Positions 955 through 7,602 of a stretch of DNA of 64,000 bases are shown here, piece after piece (the stretch's first letter is position 1; the number at the start of each line of letters is the position of its first letter). Source of the DNA: Pyrinomonadaceae bacterium (GTDB lineage: Bacteria > Acidobacteriota > Blastocatellia > Pyrinomonadales > Pyrinomonadaceae); contig JACMJZ010000013.1 of assembly GCA_014380365.1 (NCBI GenBank), positions 1 through 64,000 on the forward strand, read 5' to 3'. A program made the translations under genes and the position numbers. The notes below the pieces were generated by a model, which saw only the letters and a list, made by a program, of their open reading frames with translations, was not told where the DNA came from and did no database searches.

Positions 955-2064
955 ATGAATGAACCGCTCACAGTCGAGGGAAGCGATGCTCTGCTTTTGC
1001 CACTCATTCAAGCACGTGATCAGTCGACTGCCGAGAAGTTGCTCACCCAACTAATTCAGGAACACGCCGATCCAATCATTGCAAAAATACTTAAGAGTAA
1101 GCTCCGCGTCTCGTTAGATGGTGCTCAGGGTAATCAGGAAAATCAGGATGCCCTTGAAATTGCGAGCGAGTTGCGCACTGCGCTCATCGGTGATCTACGC
1201 GCGGTGCAGCAGCATCCCGATCAGAGATCGATCACAAGTTTCCGGGACTACGTAGCCGTTAAGACGTATTCAGCGTGCGCGGATTATTTTCGACAGAGGA
1301 ATCCGCGCCGCCGGAGCTTGAAGGATCTCTTGCGCTATCAGTTGAATCACAATCCGCAATTTGATTTGTGGAAAGCTACTAATAATCACTGGTATGCGGG
1401 CTTGAGTAGGTGGAGCGGAACCGACAGAGCCGCCAAGTTATCCGGACCATTGCCGTCTTCGGCTACGATTCTCGAAATGTTCTCGATGAAGCACGCTCAA
1501 GATTTGCAGCCTGCTGAACTCCTGACTGCGATATTTGAGCGAGGGGGACAGCCGGTTGAATTTGAGCGTGTAGTAGCCCTCGCCGCCGAGGTTTGGAACA
1601 TAACGGATGCACCAATGGAATCGGTGGACAATCCGGACTACGACGGGGACCGCGAGACGATTAACTCTCAGGGTAGCTCAACGCCGGGTGTTGATGTGCT
1701 GCTCGAGCAGCGGCTTTATCTGGAAAAGATTTGGACCGAAGTGTGTGAGCTTCCTGTCTTGCAACGCGCGGCCCTGCTGCTCAATCTGCGAGATGGGCAG
1801 GGCGGCAGCGTGATCTTCTTTATCCCTCATTTGGGTATCGCTTCTCTGCATCAGATCGCGGAAATCCTTGAACTTCCGAAAGAAGAGTTTTTGACGCTCT
1901 GGAGCGATCTTCCTCTTGATGATCTACGGATTGCTCAGATGTTTGGCATTACGCGGCAGCAAGTAATTAATCTCAGAAAGACTGCTCGCGAGCGACTCGT
2001 GCGGCGAATGAAGAAAATGGAAACGCGTGCCCAAGAGAAACGCGATAGTCAGAAACGGCACTAG
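955..2064 (+). CDS. Sigma-70-like RNA polymerase factor of a CHAT-associated module
   Basis: The 369-residue protein is probably a divergent sigma factor that directs transcription of the neighbouring module. Residues about 75-135 contain a region resembling sigma region 2 (SFRDYVAVKTYSACADYFRQ, then a basic RNPRRR patch). The C-terminus, residues about 318-352, reads as a helix-turn-helix of the region 4 type (DDLRIAQMFGITRQQVINLR). Between them lies a long acidic linker unlike compact ECF factors. The gene ends 125 bases before the likely start of the zinc-finger/TPR membrane protein, a typical sigma/anti-sigma order. The ATG at 955 has only a weak purine-rich upstream site. The assignment rests on motif appearance, so it could be another HTH regulator. 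Confidence 0.65.
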   Translation: MNEPLTVEGSDALLLPLIQARDQSTAEKLLTQLIQEHADPIIAKILKSKLRVSLDGAQGNQENQDALEIASELRTALIGDLRAVQQHPDQRSITSFRDYVAVKTYSACADYFRQRNPRRRSLKDLLRYQLNHNPQFDLWKATNNHWYAGLSRWSGTDRAAKLSGPLPSSATILEMFSMKHAQDLQPAELLTAIFERGGQPVEFERVVALAAEVWNITDAPMESVDNPDYDGDRETINSQGSSTPGVDVLLEQRLYLEKIWTEVCELPVLQRAALLLNLRDGQGGSVIFFIPHLGIASLHQIAEILELPKEEFLTLWSDLPLDDLRIAQMFGITRQQVINLRKTARERLVRRMKKMETRAQEKRDSQKRH

Positions 2065-2086
2065 TTCACGGCTTAAGGAAAGAGGT

Positions 2087-2149
2087 GTCGGGTATCGGGT
2101 GCCAGGTGTTAGGTGCCAGGTGTCAGGTGTCAGGTGTCAGGTGCCAGGT
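2087..2149 (+). repeat. Heptanucleotide tandem array (GTCAGGT type, about nine units)
   Basis: Nine consecutive seven-base units run from 2087 to 2149: GTCGGGT, ATCGGGT, GCCAGGT, GTTAGGT, GCCAGGT, three copies of GTCAGGT, then GCCAGGT. The array lies between the sigma-like gene and its partner. It is open in the partner's frame, so it creates a spurious possible N-terminal extension. Confidence 0.9.
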
Positions 2150-2189
2150 AATGCACCAGTTGAGGCAGAAGTCGATAGCAAGCAAAACA

Positions 2190-3446
2190 ATGATGGCTGA
2201 GCATTTGACCGAACAGGAAATTGAGCTTTACCGCCGGCGGGAGGCTAACCACGGGGATCGGCGAGTAATCGCCGCTCATCTTGCCGTGTGCGACGAGTGC
2301 CTTAAGCGCGTCCTGGATTCAGAGCATTCCGTTGTGGCATTCAACGCCCTATCGGAAGCGTTTCTGCCTGCAGTTGATGAAATGCCTTTCCACCTGTCAA
2401 ATGCAGAGTTGGTGAGATACAGCGCCAGCGCTGTCGCCAGTGCCGACCGAATCATTTGTGAAAGCCATCTCGAAATCTGTGAGCAATGTAGTGAAGAGCT
2501 GGGTCTACTAAGGGCGAGCCACGCTCCTGGCAAACTGATATCAAAGAGGCGTGCTGGATGGTTGCAAGCGTGGAGTCTAACACCGGCACGAGTGACCGTT
2601 GCAATTGCCCTGTTAGGCTTCATGGTTTTCGCGATCGTCCTCTGGCGGCAACGATCGTCGGTCACTCCGCGCGAGGAATCGGCGCGCACAAATTCGCAAG
2701 GCCAGGTGGCTTCATCGAGTCCACTACCTTCAAGCTCAAATCCAGCGACTCAAACTGACAACTCTCACCAATCAAACCTGGCCAGCCTCAAGGATAACGA
2801 TCGGGAGATTCGCCTCGACCAGGGCGGTAAGCTGACCGGACTGGAAGAGTTCGACGAGTCAGCACAGCAGATGGCCAGGGCAGCGTTAGCCGGTGAAGCT
2901 TTGGCGAAGCCAGACGTGCTCGACAATCTTTCGCCTCCTCCTATCAAACTATTGGGCCAGCCGGACGCGGACGGTTTCCAATTGATTAGCCCGCTCAGCA
3001 GAGTTGTTACCGAGCAACGTCCAAACCTTAGATGGCGGGAGTTCAAGGGCGCCACGAGCTACGTCGTTTCCCTTTTTGATAACAATTTCAATCGCGTCGC
3101 CAAGAGTCCGCCGCTATCGAAGCCCACCTGGAGGTTGGCCGTCCCTCTGCAACGCGGGCAAACCTACTCATGGGAGGTCACGGCTGTTAAAGACGGCGAA
3201 GAGATCACCGCACCGGTCGCGCCGGCTCCCAGAGCGCAATTCAGAGTGCTCGAAGCCGATAAGCTAAACGCTTTGACGAAACTCAAGGGACAAAGGCCGG
3301 CGTCACATTTGGCGTTAGGTTTAACTTATGCGCGCCTTGGTTTGATCCCCGAAGCGGAAAGTGAATTTCGGCAGTTGCTGAAAGAGAACCCGGATTCCGC
3401 TTTGGCGAAGAAGCTGCTGCGCACGGTTCAGTCGTGGCAGAAATAG
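2190..3446 (+). CDS. Anti-sigma-like membrane protein: zinc-finger motifs, TM helix, TPR
   Basis: The 418-residue protein has two H-x3-C-x2-C motifs near its N-terminus (HLAVCDECLKR and HLEICEQCSEE), as in zinc-finger anti-sigma factors. One transmembrane helix follows (AIALLGFMVFAIVLW, around residue 140). The outer part contains a fibronectin-like segment (RPNLRWREFKGATSYVVSLF) and a C-terminal TPR-like pair of helices (LALGLTYARLGLIPEAESEF). It most likely holds the upstream sigma-like factor at the membrane until a signal reaches the outer part. The ATG at 2190 or 2193 is preferred because the frame upstream, open from 2085, is only the heptamer array. No strong ribosome-binding site is seen for either start. 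Confidence 0.7.
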   Translation: MMAEHLTEQEIELYRRREANHGDRRVIAAHLAVCDECLKRVLDSEHSVVAFNALSEAFLPAVDEMPFHLSNAELVRYSASAVASADRIICESHLEICEQCSEELGLLRASHAPGKLISKRRAGWLQAWSLTPARVTVAIALLGFMVFAIVLWRQRSSVTPREESARTNSQGQVASSSPLPSSSNPATQTDNSHQSNLASLKDNDREIRLDQGGKLTGLEEFDESAQQMARAALAGEALAKPDVLDNLSPPPIKLLGQPDADGFQLISPLSRVVTEQRPNLRWREFKGATSYVVSLFDNNFNRVAKSPPLSKPTWRLAVPLQRGQTYSWEVTAVKDGEEITAPVAPAPRAQFRVLEADKLNALTKLKGQRPASHLALGLTYARLGLIPEAESEFRQLLKENPDSALAKKLLRTVQSWQK

Positions 3447-3448
3447 TT

Positions 3449-3570
3449 GAGCCACAGATAAACACGTATTCTCACAAATAAAACAAAGAGGAAGAATGGT
3501 CTTCGGTCAGCCCAGGGTTTTAGTTTAGTGTTTGATCGGATCCGTGATCATCTGTGTTCACCTGTGGCTT
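3449..3570 (+). repeat. Imperfect inverted repeat between convergent genes
   Basis: GAGCCACAGATAAACAC at 3449 is complementary, with a few mismatches, to GTGTTCACCTGTGGCTTC ending near 3570. It fills the gap between the anti-sigma-like gene and the convergent CHAT gene and could act as a two-way terminator. Confidence 0.6.
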
Positions 3571-3573
3571 CAC

Positions 3574-6500
3574 TTACATCCCGTTTCCCACAACCACGAA
3601 TCCGGACCAGAAGAACGGATGTCGGTATTTTGGATCCGACATTAGTCTTAGTGCGGCCTGGCGCAGGGCCGCGGCCTTGCTCACAGTCAACTGTTTGTCT
3701 GTCCCTCGAAGTGAGCGGTGAAAATCCACCATCAACCGTGCGGTGCTTGCCGAGTCAACTTTCCACTGGCTTACAACCGTCGTCGAAGCGCCCGCGATGA
3801 AGAAGGCCCACGACATCCCGATTAGACCTTCGCCCGGGCCAGTCTCTCCGCGCGCTGTTTGGCAAGCGGAGAGCACTACCAGACTGGCATGAAGATCGAG
3901 CTTCATGATTTCTCTCGCTTCAAGGAACCCATCATTGTTTCCATTGGAACTCGCGAGCAGCAGCCGAGAGTAAAGCGGATTTTTGTCATCCAACAATCCA
4001 TGCGTCGCAAAATGAAGAATCGGATAGCGCCCGGCCTCGGCTTTGACTGTTTCCTCCCGCGCCGCCGAGCCGGTTAGGATCTTGCTGTTCTGCGCGCCAT
4101 AAATCTCACCGAGGGTCTTGACCTCACGTTCGGCTTCGGGCAAGTCGCCCAAAGAAAGATTTTTGTCCCGGGATTTTGTTGCGGAGAGCGAACGCTCGCT
4201 TACTTTCGGGTTTCCCATTGCCAGCAGGGCCGGCAGCGATGGCGCTGGCGTTGTCGCAGTTAGGCCGGCCTTCACCATCGAAGCGTTCGCCGTCACCATC
4301 GAAGCGTTGGCTGAACTAACGACCAAATTACTCGCTGACTCATGATCGGCAACCCTCTTTCTCATTTCACGCAGCACGCTCAAAGACGGTGCATAGAACA
4401 AAGCGTGATCTTCAAGAAAGTATCTGTCCGTTTGCGCGAGCAAAGCTTGAAATGGCAGCTCCCAAAGCTGATTCGAAGGCACGATACAAACCGCTGTCTT
4501 GCCTTCAAGCTCTCTTTGCGCGGGGCCCAACAGGAGGTCATACAGTTGCCGGGAGTGATCCTTGAAATCGAGTGAGTTGTTAGCGAGATGTTGGCGAAAG
4601 CCCTGGACACGCGTCGTCAGCTCCGCGGCAGTAATCGTAATTGGGAAGACCTTAATCTCAACCCCATCGGCGTTGACACCCGCGCCGTTTTTCGTCAGCA
4701 CAAACAGATACGTCTTTTCTGGAGCGACGACATACTCCAGCAGGGCTGTTTTGGTATCGCCAATCAAGGGCGCGACTTCGGCAATCTTAATTGCTTCGGC
4801 AGCGCCGCGGTTAACCTTCAACTCAGGATGCGCGGCATAGATGCGCGTTTCGTATGCTTCGGATTCAAGGCGGGCCGTCTGTAGTTGCGCATCGATGAAG
4901 GCGAGACGTGACTTATCCGGCTGAGGGAGCGAACTCTCTTTGCGCAGTTGAGAGCCGAGCGCAGTTACTCGGGCATTCAACTGTTTCTCCTGATTGCGCT
5001 CTTCATTTGTCATCGTCGTCGTGATATCCGCCCTGCCGTTGCGCAGCACGTCAAGCAACATTCGTCCTTTTGCCAGTTCGGCGTACTGAAACGCCTCAGC
5101 TACCTTGTTCTGAGCAATCAATAGCTCAACCATCGCCACGTAAGGCACAGTCTTGTTCTCAAAAAAGAGTTGTTGCTCTCTTTCGTTTCCGACCAATTGA
5201 CCACGAAGTTTTTCCAGAACCGTGATCGCTTCGGTGAAGGCTAGCTGCGCCAGAGCTACTTTTTTGACGGCGAGGTAAGCCTGGCCCAGGGCTGTTAACG
5301 TCTGCCACAAAACCTCGGGGGTATTGGCCGCCCGGGCAAGCTCCGTAGCGCGGGTGAAAAGATCCACCGCTTCAGTGTAATTCCCTTGTTTGAAACGAAC
5401 ATTCCCGACCCCGGCCAAAGACATTGCAGTCAGTGCCCTGAAACCAAATTCTTCCTGCAACTTCAGGCTGCGCTGATAGAAATCAATTGCCTCGCTGTAG
5501 CGCTCCTGCGCAGCATGGACCGCTGCGATCCTGTTCAGCAGATAAGCCGTTCCAGCCTTGTCAAAAATCCGTTCGTATACCCTCAGACTCCTCTGGTAGT
5601 ACTCCAGAGCCTGCGTGTGGTTGCGCTGGGCAAAGTACGCATTCCCTATGCTCAGTAACGGATACGCGATCTCTTGCGTGCTGCCGAGTTCTTCAAAGAG
5701 CTTCGCGCTCCTCTGGTAATACTCCATGGCCTGCGGGAAGTTACCTTGATAGTAGTGGATGTTTCCCAACTTGACTGAGACGGCGGCGATGCCCTGCTTG
5801 ACTCCAAGGCTTTCCGCGAGTTTCATGACCTGCTGGTAATTATCCGCGGCCGGCACGTAGTCTCCCCGAGCCACGTAAACATCCCCCAGACCCATCAACG
5901 CGTTGGCAGTTCCCAGTAATGAGTTGACTCGCTTGCCCGTCGTCAGAACGATGTTAAAGACCATCTCAGCCTGCGCGTCGTTGCCTTTCCGTTCTAAAAG
6001 GCTTTGGGCCTGGTCCGCCAAACCTCTTAGCAACCCATCCGTAAATGGCTCGCTGCCTTTAAGCACTACCGCGCGCTCGTCATCGGTCTTCGCCGCCAAC
6101 AGCTCAATGGTGAGTTCTTCGGCAGTGTTCATGAGCTGCCATATCTTCCAGCCCCCGTTTTCGTTAACAAAGCGAAGGGTGTGGGCCATCCGGCCAAAGC
6201 CTTCTGCATCCTTGCCGGTGTCCTTATTAACCGCGTGAATCTCGACGTCTAAGTACGCCGTTGCCTTCTCACCCTGAATTTGCAAATTGCGGGCGAGGTT
6301 GACCCTTATCCCATTAATCTTGACCTTTTGGTTTGCGGCAAAGTCTTCCTGGATAAACAGCTTGAATTCGCGGTAATAGGGGGATTGCTGGCTGAACATT
6401 GAGAGCAGCGCCGGTGCATCTTTCTTCGCGTAAGCCTCGTAGGCTTTTAGAACTACCTTCTGGATAGCAGTGTCATCAGGACTTAGCAACGGTGACAGCT

Positions 6501-6624
6501 TTGCGGCGGCCTCATCGGCTGTTTGCGCGTGGGTTGGGAGGGATATGCCGCATGCGAAGAAGAGTAAGAGTAAGATGCACGCGTTCACAACGAATGAATA
6601 ATGACGAAAGCAATTCGGTAACAT
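3574..6624 (-). CDS. Secreted TPR-CHAT (caspase-like) protein
   Basis: This 1016-residue exported protein has an N-terminal signal (hydrophobic VNACILLLLFFACGI, then THAQ). A nuclear-transport-factor-like segment follows at roughly 45-175, then a run of tetratricopeptide repeats at about 205-480. A coiled-coil linker leads into a C-terminal CHAT domain at about 660-1016. The CHAT caspase-type dyad is intact: His875 in HFATHG and Cys921 in LSACQTARG. CHAT proteins are clan CD proteases of separase/caspase type, and TPRs usually recognise a partner. The gene converges with the sigma/anti-sigma pair, and both share TPR-type modules, so a linked signalling role is likely. The substrate is unknown. 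Confidence 0.88.
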   Translation of the reverse strand: MLPNCFRHYSFVVNACILLLLFFACGISLPTHAQTADEAAAKLSPLLSPDDTAIQKVVLKAYEAYAKKDAPALLSMFSQQSPYYREFKLFIQEDFAANQKVKINGIRVNLARNLQIQGEKATAYLDVEIHAVNKDTGKDAEGFGRMAHTLRFVNENGGWKIWQLMNTAEELTIELLAAKTDDERAVVLKGSEPFTDGLLRGLADQAQSLLERKGNDAQAEMVFNIVLTTGKRVNSLLGTANALMGLGDVYVARGDYVPAADNYQQVMKLAESLGVKQGIAAVSVKLGNIHYYQGNFPQAMEYYQRSAKLFEELGSTQEIAYPLLSIGNAYFAQRNHTQALEYYQRSLRVYERIFDKAGTAYLLNRIAAVHAAQERYSEAIDFYQRSLKLQEEFGFRALTAMSLAGVGNVRFKQGNYTEAVDLFTRATELARAANTPEVLWQTLTALGQAYLAVKKVALAQLAFTEAITVLEKLRGQLVGNEREQQLFFENKTVPYVAMVELLIAQNKVAEAFQYAELAKGRMLLDVLRNGRADITTTMTNEERNQEKQLNARVTALGSQLRKESSLPQPDKSRLAFIDAQLQTARLESEAYETRIYAAHPELKVNRGAAEAIKIAEVAPLIGDTKTALLEYVVAPEKTYLFVLTKNGAGVNADGVEIKVFPITITAAELTTRVQGFRQHLANNSLDFKDHSRQLYDLLLGPAQRELEGKTAVCIVPSNQLWELPFQALLAQTDRYFLEDHALFYAPSLSVLREMRKRVADHESASNLVVSSANASMVTANASMVKAGLTATTPAPSLPALLAMGNPKVSERSLSATKSRDKNLSLGDLPEAEREVKTLGEIYGAQNSKILTGSAAREETVKAEAGRYPILHFATHGLLDDKNPLYSRLLLASSNGNNDGFLEAREIMKLDLHASLVVLSACQTARGETGPGEGLIGMSWAFFIAGASTTVVSQWKVDSASTARLMVDFHRSLRGTDKQLTVSKAAALRQAALRLMSDPKYRHPFFWSGFVVVGNGM

Positions 6625-6924
6625 CCGCTGGAGCCTCTCTTAGGTGAGCCCGGGTTTGCAAAGCGCAAGTGAATGAAAAGTGTTTGATGCCAACCGGGAT
6701 GATTCAGTCTAACCCAAAAATAATTTTTCCCGACTACTAATAACACCGAACACCTCACGGCTAACACTACCAGCAAGTCGATCTCGATCCGTTTGTCTGA
6801 AGGTCGTCGTGTCTGAACGTCTGCTCCGAAGGACAATCGTTGGCGCATGCCAACTCCTGCCAACTCCCCGTTACCACCGACATCGCTTGCTGCTGCTTGC
6901 GGCGTTGTGAAAAGGAGACAATTA
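6625..6924. other. Intergenic region between divergent CHAT and barrel genes
   Basis: This 300-base divergent promoter region contains no credible gene. A perfect 16-base palindrome, GTTGGCGCATGCCAAC at 6838-6853, lies about 70 bases upstream of the barrel gene start and could be an operator; no regulator is known for it. No convincing -35/-10 pair was recognised. Confidence 0.4.
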
Positions 6925-7602
6925 ATGAAACTAGCCATTAAGAACTTGATTAGCCGCCTGCCGTTCTGCGCCGTACTGCTGATGTGCTCCACCGCATTCG
7001 CGTTGGCGCAAAGTGCGAACCAGGACGATTATCCCAAGGTCGAAGTCTTCGTCGGCTACTCGGGTCTCTTCGAAGCCAACAGTCGTGGTATTGCCTTTGG
7101 CCCCGGTCGCAGCGTCGGAGGAAATTACCACGGGGATGGATTTGAAACTTCGGTTATCGGGAACTTCAACAGGAATTTTGGCATCAAGGGCGACTTCTCG
7201 GCCCATTTAAAGACCGACAATGAGCGGGGTGAGTTAATTAACTGCACACCGACTTGTACGACCGCCACCCAGGACTTTCAGTTGAAGACGCGCCTTTACA
7301 ATTTTCTGGTTGGTCCGGAGTTCAAGGCGCGCAACAGCACGCGCGTCACGCCGTTCGTCTATGCGCTCGGGGGTGTGGCGCACACGAGCGCAACTTTCAC
7401 GACGCCAGGTCCAACCTTCAATCTTCTCTTGAAGAAAAGCGACACCAGCTTCGCGATGGCGTTGGGCGGCGGTCTCGATATCCGCGCGACGAAGAGACTG
7501 AGCTTCCGCGGCTCGATGGATTACAACCCTGTGTTTGTTAAAGACTCAACGAGTGGCACGCGCGACTTAGTGCGCATTTCGTTTGGCGTGTTGATTCATT
7601 GA
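6925..7602 (+). CDS. Outer-membrane beta-barrel protein
   Basis: The 225-residue precursor starts at the ATG at 6925, preceded by AAAGGAG six bases upstream. A signal peptide (SRLPFCAVLLMCSTAFALAQ) is followed by alternating hydrophobic strands typical of small OmpA/OmpW-like barrels: KVEVFVGYSGLF, GIKGDFSAHL, LYNFLVGPEFKA, RVTPFVYALGGVAH. It ends in a C-terminal strand VRISFGVLIH that closes the barrel. No periplasmic peptidoglycan-binding domain is present. It faces divergently from the CHAT gene. A structural or transport role in the outer membrane is inferred; no specific ligand can be named. Confidence 0.8.
   Translation: MKLAIKNLISRLPFCAVLLMCSTAFALAQSANQDDYPKVEVFVGYSGLFEANSRGIAFGPGRSVGGNYHGDGFETSVIGNFNRNFGIKGDFSAHLKTDNERGELINCTPTCTTATQDFQLKTRLYNFLVGPEFKARNSTRVTPFVYALGGVAHTSATFTTPGPTFNLLLKKSDTSFAMALGGGLDIRATKRLSFRGSMDYNPVFVKDSTSGTRDLVRISFGVLIH

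Follow-up and report, generated by a model that had tools for sequence, protein, structure and literature searches.

Contig G000:C21 of an Acidobacteriota genome is 214 kb long, and its opening 64 kb, referred to here as the window, carry three genes between positions 955 and 6624 that very probably form a functional module. They encode a divergent, extracytoplasmic function (ECF)-like sigma factor of 369 residues (955..2064, forward strand), a membrane anti-sigma factor of 418 residues (2190..3446, forward strand, with its ATG at 2190), and an exported protease-like protein of 1016 residues that combines tetratricopeptide repeats (TPRs) with a CHAT domain (3574..6624, reverse strand) and is convergent with the sigma/anti-sigma pair. 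All three open reading frames (ORFs) were confirmed at the positions assigned to them by an earlier note on this DNA. The likeliest mechanism, to which we give about an even chance, is that the CHAT protein, working in the periplasm, targets the portion of the anti-sigma factor exposed there, which would release the sigma factor. The sequences themselves show family identities, predicted topology, the conservation of catalytic and zinc-binding residues, gene linkage, a dedicated CHAT clade, and fusions found in a sister system.

The earlier note had made its proposal depend on the three genes being neighbours in related genomes, and this was examined across the Acidobacteriota phylum. The available relatives are mostly fragmented assemblies in which many loci are cut by contig ends, and loci were picked by their similarity to one sigma factor, such that divergent members may be missed. 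Homologues of the sigma factor were found in 66 of the 162 genomes of the class and, at E<=1e-20, in 21 of 396 genomes sampled across the phylum. Wherever enough sequence was present, the anti-sigma gene nearly always lay 3' of the sigma gene at a distance of no more than 400 bp (44/47 loci), and a CHAT gene, mostly convergent, lay within 3 kb in 27 of 38 loci (24 of 31 genomes). The neighbourhood thus holds in relatives. In four loci (L053, L068, L087 and L094) the CHAT gene is instead upstream of the pair and co-directional with it, such that linkage survives rearrangement of both position and strand. The full convergent trio recurs in other classes of the phylum (L106 and L109), while L105 and L112 carry the sigma and anti-sigma genes only, and three genomes each contain two complete, diverged trios. 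The trio is therefore kept together across distant relatives in many soil bacteria of one phylum.

That the trio might be a genomic neighbourhood devoid of shared function deserves consideration, given the large number of CHAT proteins per genome here, often 5-14 or more. However, the linkage of 71% compares with an expectation of 3-6% per locus even with 14-40 CHATs per genome, giving a binomial tail of ~1e-25 or lower. Furthermore, the linked CHATs group together in one clade (100/99 support) that is specific to this sigma family and has a single unlinked member (L182), and the linkage persists through rearrangement and across classes. A plain neighbourhood is accordingly very improbable and close to excluded.

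The identity of the sigma factor rests on its family. The window protein alone has no Pfam match and reaches only 15.4 bits with TIGR02937 (E=0.011; cut-off 42.9). Among 50 homologues, by contrast, 48 match TIGR02937 (best 4e-15) and 31 match Sigma70_r2 (best 7e-10), and others match region 4. By these profile matches the protein belongs to the sigma-70/ECF-like family, as had been proposed for the ORF at 955-2064. The family consensus comprises a region-2-like stretch (DAED...YLRxKxPxR) and a C-terminal helix-turn-helix, and in the window protein sigma2 spans approximately residues 24-120 and sigma4 approximately residues 256-351. A canonical ECF sigma factor has only a short linker at this point, whereas here ~140 residues intervene between the two domains, and the protein is therefore described as ECF-like rather than as a canonical ECF. 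Part of the intervening stretch (residues ~188-232; 1516..1650, forward strand) resembles in profile matches the N-terminal domain of the RNA polymerase (RNAP) delta subunit, a protein known from Firmicutes. Below E=0.01 the insert matches delta chains only, both with the insert profile (1.5e-4, five chains) and with the whole profile (0.0015).

The earlier proposal had also called for a sigma fold on structure prediction. Although sequence places the protein in the sigma-70/ECF-like family, the AlphaFold model, built from the window protein and one related sequence, is weak (mean predicted local distance difference test score, pLDDT, of 46), its best part being residues ~11-100, and the Foldseek matches to this low-confidence model are mostly sigma factors yet non-significant (best E=0.058). 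The anti-sigma model, made from the same kind of input, is likewise of low confidence (pLDDT 38). No domain claim is therefore based on structure prediction. Two repeats flank the sigma gene: a long inverted repeat upstream, at 755-860 (CTCCGTGTTCTCTGTGTCTCTGTGGT ... ACCACCGAGACACAGAGAACACGGAG), and, in the gap before the anti-sigma gene at 2085-2150, a short tandem repeat of the GGTGTCAGGTGCCA type.

The membrane protein had been noted for two HxxxCxxC motifs, and both prove to be full Hx24Hx3Cx2C zinc anti-sigma motifs. Counting residues from base 2187, the first (2202..2300, forward strand) comprises H6, H31, C35 and C38, all invariant among 43 homologues; in the second (2391..2489, forward strand) H94, C98 and C101 are invariant and H69 nearly so. 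The zf-HC2 profile is matched by 42 of the 43 homologues, and the anti-sigma profile matches the solved structures of ChrR, DdvA and RsiW, as well as 3hug, which we take to be the RslA anti-sigma factor. With its N-terminal Hx3Cx2C domain present in two copies, the protein falls within the class I (zinc) anti-sigma factors, and gene order suggests that it would bind and inhibit the neighbouring sigma factor.

A single transmembrane (TM) helix follows (ARVTVAIALLGFMVFAIVL; 2586..2642, forward strand), and hydropathy predicts one such helix, with an extracytoplasmic C-terminus, in all 28 complete trios. Beyond the helix lie a variable linker and then a conserved block (2970..3416, forward strand) consisting of an Ig/Fn3-like region and one TPR-like unit, as judged from Big_10, Ig and TPR_14 matches among relatives. 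The C-terminal repeat is under the Pfam cut-off in the window protein and was detected in 33 of 43 relatives. The suggestion that both this protein and the CHAT protein carry TPR-like modules thus holds in full for the latter, which has a TPR stretch, and only in part for the anti-sigma factor, which has a single unit. The accompanying idea of a shared partner bound by the TPRs is disfavoured because of that single unit, and the TPR stretch of the CHAT protein shows little co-divergence with the anti-sigma factor (0.16 after sigma divergence is removed).

The assignment of the third protein is unambiguous, with PF12770 matched at E=4.4e-73 (246.7 bits, cut-off 24) and TPR_12 at E=1.7e-48. Its CHAT domain (residues 690-1014; 3583..4557, reverse strand) aligns with Csx29 (8d9h) across both predicted catalytic residues, His875 (codon 4000..4002, reverse strand) and Cys921 (codon 3862..3864, reverse strand). 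The reading of this dyad as intact is borne out: both residues are invariant in an alignment of 30 linked CHATs, and the dyad is kept by every CHAT with letters at those columns in a set of 69 CHATs of all kinds. Because the dyad is invariant in the linked CHATs, catalysis appears to be kept under selection.

The CHAT protein begins with a signal peptide (residues 1-34, ending in THAQT; 6523..6624, reverse strand), in agreement with its earlier description as secreted. A hydrophobic N-terminal signal core is present in 28 of 28 trio-linked CHATs, most of them ending in an A-x-A-Q-like site, with signal peptides and TM helices called throughout by hydropathy and motif only. Since the CHAT protein has a signal sequence and the anti-sigma factor one TM helix in 28/28 trios, the former and the C-terminus of the latter are predicted to lie on the same extracytoplasmic side; at the level of topology, all 28 trios thus show the DegS-type combination of an extracytoplasmic protease with a TM anti-sigma factor. 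Ahead of the TPRs lies a SnoaL_3 (NTF2-like) domain (residues 55-163; 6136..6462, reverse strand; E=1.2e-4, alignment). A comparable stretch occurs in some CHAT relatives only, and this domain is possibly a variable sensor.

In the proposed mechanism, the anti-sigma factor would use its two cytoplasmic zinc anti-sigma domains to keep the ECF-like sigma factor bound at the inner membrane, leaving its Ig-like and TPR region exposed to the periplasm. The exported TPR-CHAT protein would sense a periplasmic signal, most likely via its TPR stretch and variable N-terminal domain, then dock on the anti-sigma factor's periplasmic portion and cut either this portion or something guarding it, in the way that DegS acts on RseA. 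The sigma factor might then be freed by intramembrane and cytoplasmic housekeeping proteases and would redirect RNA polymerase. We infer the sigma/anti-sigma binding, the proteolysis, the cleavage site, the trigger signal and the regulon within this scheme.

The strongest sequence evidence that an anti-sigma factor and a CHAT protein work together physically comes from a sister system. Elsewhere in the same genome, a second locus (L096:3739-11084, G000:C22) encodes a clostripain (Peptidase_C11), a TPR-CHAT protein, a short sigma factor with Sigma70_r4_2, and a TM anti-sigma-like protein. Homologues of this short sigma factor were found in 43 of 78 class genomes, and a CHAT gene adjoins it in 17 of 21 loci of this type (type 2, the window's arrangement being type 1). 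In eight of the 21, the anti-sigma-like domain, TM helix, TPRs and CHAT domain are joined in one ORF of ~1000-1230 residues beside the short sigma gene (L147, L150, L151, which is cut by a contig end, L152, L153, L154, L156 and L163). The N-terminal anti-sigma-like domain of the fusions aligns with the type-1 anti-sigma factor at an hhalign E of 3e-10, and 10 of 22 type-2 anti-sigma-like members match NCBIfam anti-sigma models. In a third arrangement (L172:7369-11458 and L181:7287-11469), an ordinary ECF sigma factor, a TM anti-sigma-like protein and a CHAT protein are encoded in one direction. Among 20 high-scoring CHATs from a hand-spread sample, 8 adjoin one of these sigma or anti-sigma types.

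Clostripain-family (C11) genes also lie beside the type-2 sigma/CHAT clusters at L145, L149 and L162, making two clan CD proteases neighbours. A further locus of the window's genome (L097:8730-14654, G000:C5) has a TPR-CHAT gene next to genes for two proteins with DUF4384, one of which is a Ser/Thr kinase, and may represent a further way of using CHAT in signalling.

In 28 trios, the three members show correlated evolutionary distances. With sigma divergence removed, the CHAT domain retains a partial r of 0.52 with the anti-sigma factor's periplasmic part, as compared with 0.24 with its cytoplasmic N-terminal part, and this co-divergence is suggestive only. Both it and the sister-system fusions require contact alone, and would equally suit a complex in which the anti-sigma factor is not cut, with the CHAT protein serving as a tether or co-sensor, or with the membrane protein holding the protease in check. 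However, no linked CHAT that has letters at the two columns departs from the His/Cys dyad, and we consider a non-cutting complex improbable.

A different role for the CHAT protein would be that of an output, in which the sigma factor, freed by another envelope protease, turns on the CHAT gene, and the targets of the exported protease are the envelope or other cells. Control of neighbouring genes is common among ECF sigma factors, and at most loci CHAT stands as a gene of its own, convergent with the pair. Moreover, the two closest genomes share a distinctive promoter-like block upstream of CHAT: the sequence AATTATTTTTGNGNTAGACTGA (6704..6725, reverse strand), a possible promoter, is conserved between the window and L037, a Pyrinomonadaceae metagenome-assembled genome that is the nearest named relative found for the window. 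Yet at <=3 mismatches this block is the only such site in each of the two genomes, and it therefore predicts no regulon. No motif is common to the upstream regions of the sigma and CHAT genes, and the fusions of the sister system indicate a direct physical role rather than that of a mere target gene. The CHAT protein as output thus seems unlikely, while retaining some weight.

Several results also count against release of the sigma factor by periplasmic action of CHAT on the anti-sigma factor. In 11 of 38 loci no CHAT gene lies within 3 kb, and the sigma and anti-sigma factors can therefore persist either in the absence of a CHAT protein or with one that is not linked. In the periplasmic region of the anti-sigma factor, no conserved site for cleavage could be recognised, the CHAT gene has its own promoter region, and a search for a two-part promoter motif shared by the upstream regions of 53 sigma and 29 CHAT genes yielded no convincing candidate. 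In addition, the co-divergence signal is based on only 28 trios and on segments of unequal length. One type-1 locus (L066:11505-14207) carries a secreted Met-zincin (DUF4953) as the convergent gene in place of CHAT, a single case that may be chance.

The closest parallel is Craspase, the type III-E CRISPR system in which the TPR-CHAT protease Csx29 cleaves Csx30, an inhibitor of CASP-sigma, and whose authors note the parallel with DegS/RseA (PMC10028731). There, as in the window, a TPR-CHAT protease, a sigma inhibitor and an ECF-like sigma factor share one locus, and the window CHAT aligns with Csx29 over both catalytic residues. In contrast to Craspase, however, the window CHAT begins with a signal peptide and the role of inhibitor would fall to a zinc anti-sigma factor in the membrane; nor does the window CHAT belong to the Csx29 family, scoring 30.8 bits with NF041237 against a cut-off of 300. 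Similarly, DegS/RseA/sigmaE and RsiW/SigW resemble the window in having a membrane anti-sigma factor with a periplasmic part, on which an exported first protease is proposed to act here. Unlike the PDZ-serine protease DegS, the window protease would be of the caspase type (clan CD), and it is encoded beside the pair; its cleavage of the anti-sigma factor is putative.

CHAT-domain proteins also occur in the conserved genetic context of the ECF54 sigma factors, which are described as lacking an anti-sigma factor and for which proteolytic control has been proposed (PMC8999054). While the presence of CHAT proteins near a sigma gene is common to both, the window family is set apart from ECF54 by description, given an adjoining anti-sigma gene at 44 of 47 loci. 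In addition, residues 7-61 of a CHAT domain-containing protein of known structure (PDB 8rot/8rw5) match the zinc anti-sigma profile (E=0.0039), as if an anti-sigma factor and a CHAT protein were fused, whereas in the window the two are separate proteins. In the literature examined, no description was found of a TM zinc anti-sigma factor combined with an exported CHAT protein, an earlier gene-context mention in ECF classification being possible.

Taken more broadly, and with somewhat less confidence than even, these arrangements may mean that the first protease to act in the periplasm during transmembrane sigma/anti-sigma signalling is one of clan CD (the caspase family). The Acidobacteriota versions would comprise a separate secreted CHAT, a CHAT that shares an operon with an ordinary ECF, and fusions of anti-sigma domain, TM helix and CHAT in which self-cleavage may release sigma, with the window sigma factor also carrying an RNAP delta-like domain. 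To our knowledge, bacterial CHAT proteins are abundant and mostly of no known function; up to 14 or more were found per genome in one class here, and the module would give one CHAT clade a concrete job with a named candidate substrate. If correct, the proposal would move the logic of Craspase, in which a caspase-like protease cuts a sigma inhibitor, from CRISPR and the cytoplasm to ordinary envelope signalling. It would also provide a route from extracellular signal to transcription in the Acidobacteriota, a phylum for which we know of few regulators.

Finally, the tRNA cluster described beside the trio consists of just two tRNAs 5' of the sigma gene, for Gly (291-365) and Cys (465-539), and no RNA families other than these ordinary tRNAs were found at the locus. 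PADLOC returned generic TPR matches only. At 6847-7602, divergent from the CHAT gene, lies a gene for an outer-membrane beta-barrel protein, of which L037 has a homologue (30% identity) in the same place.

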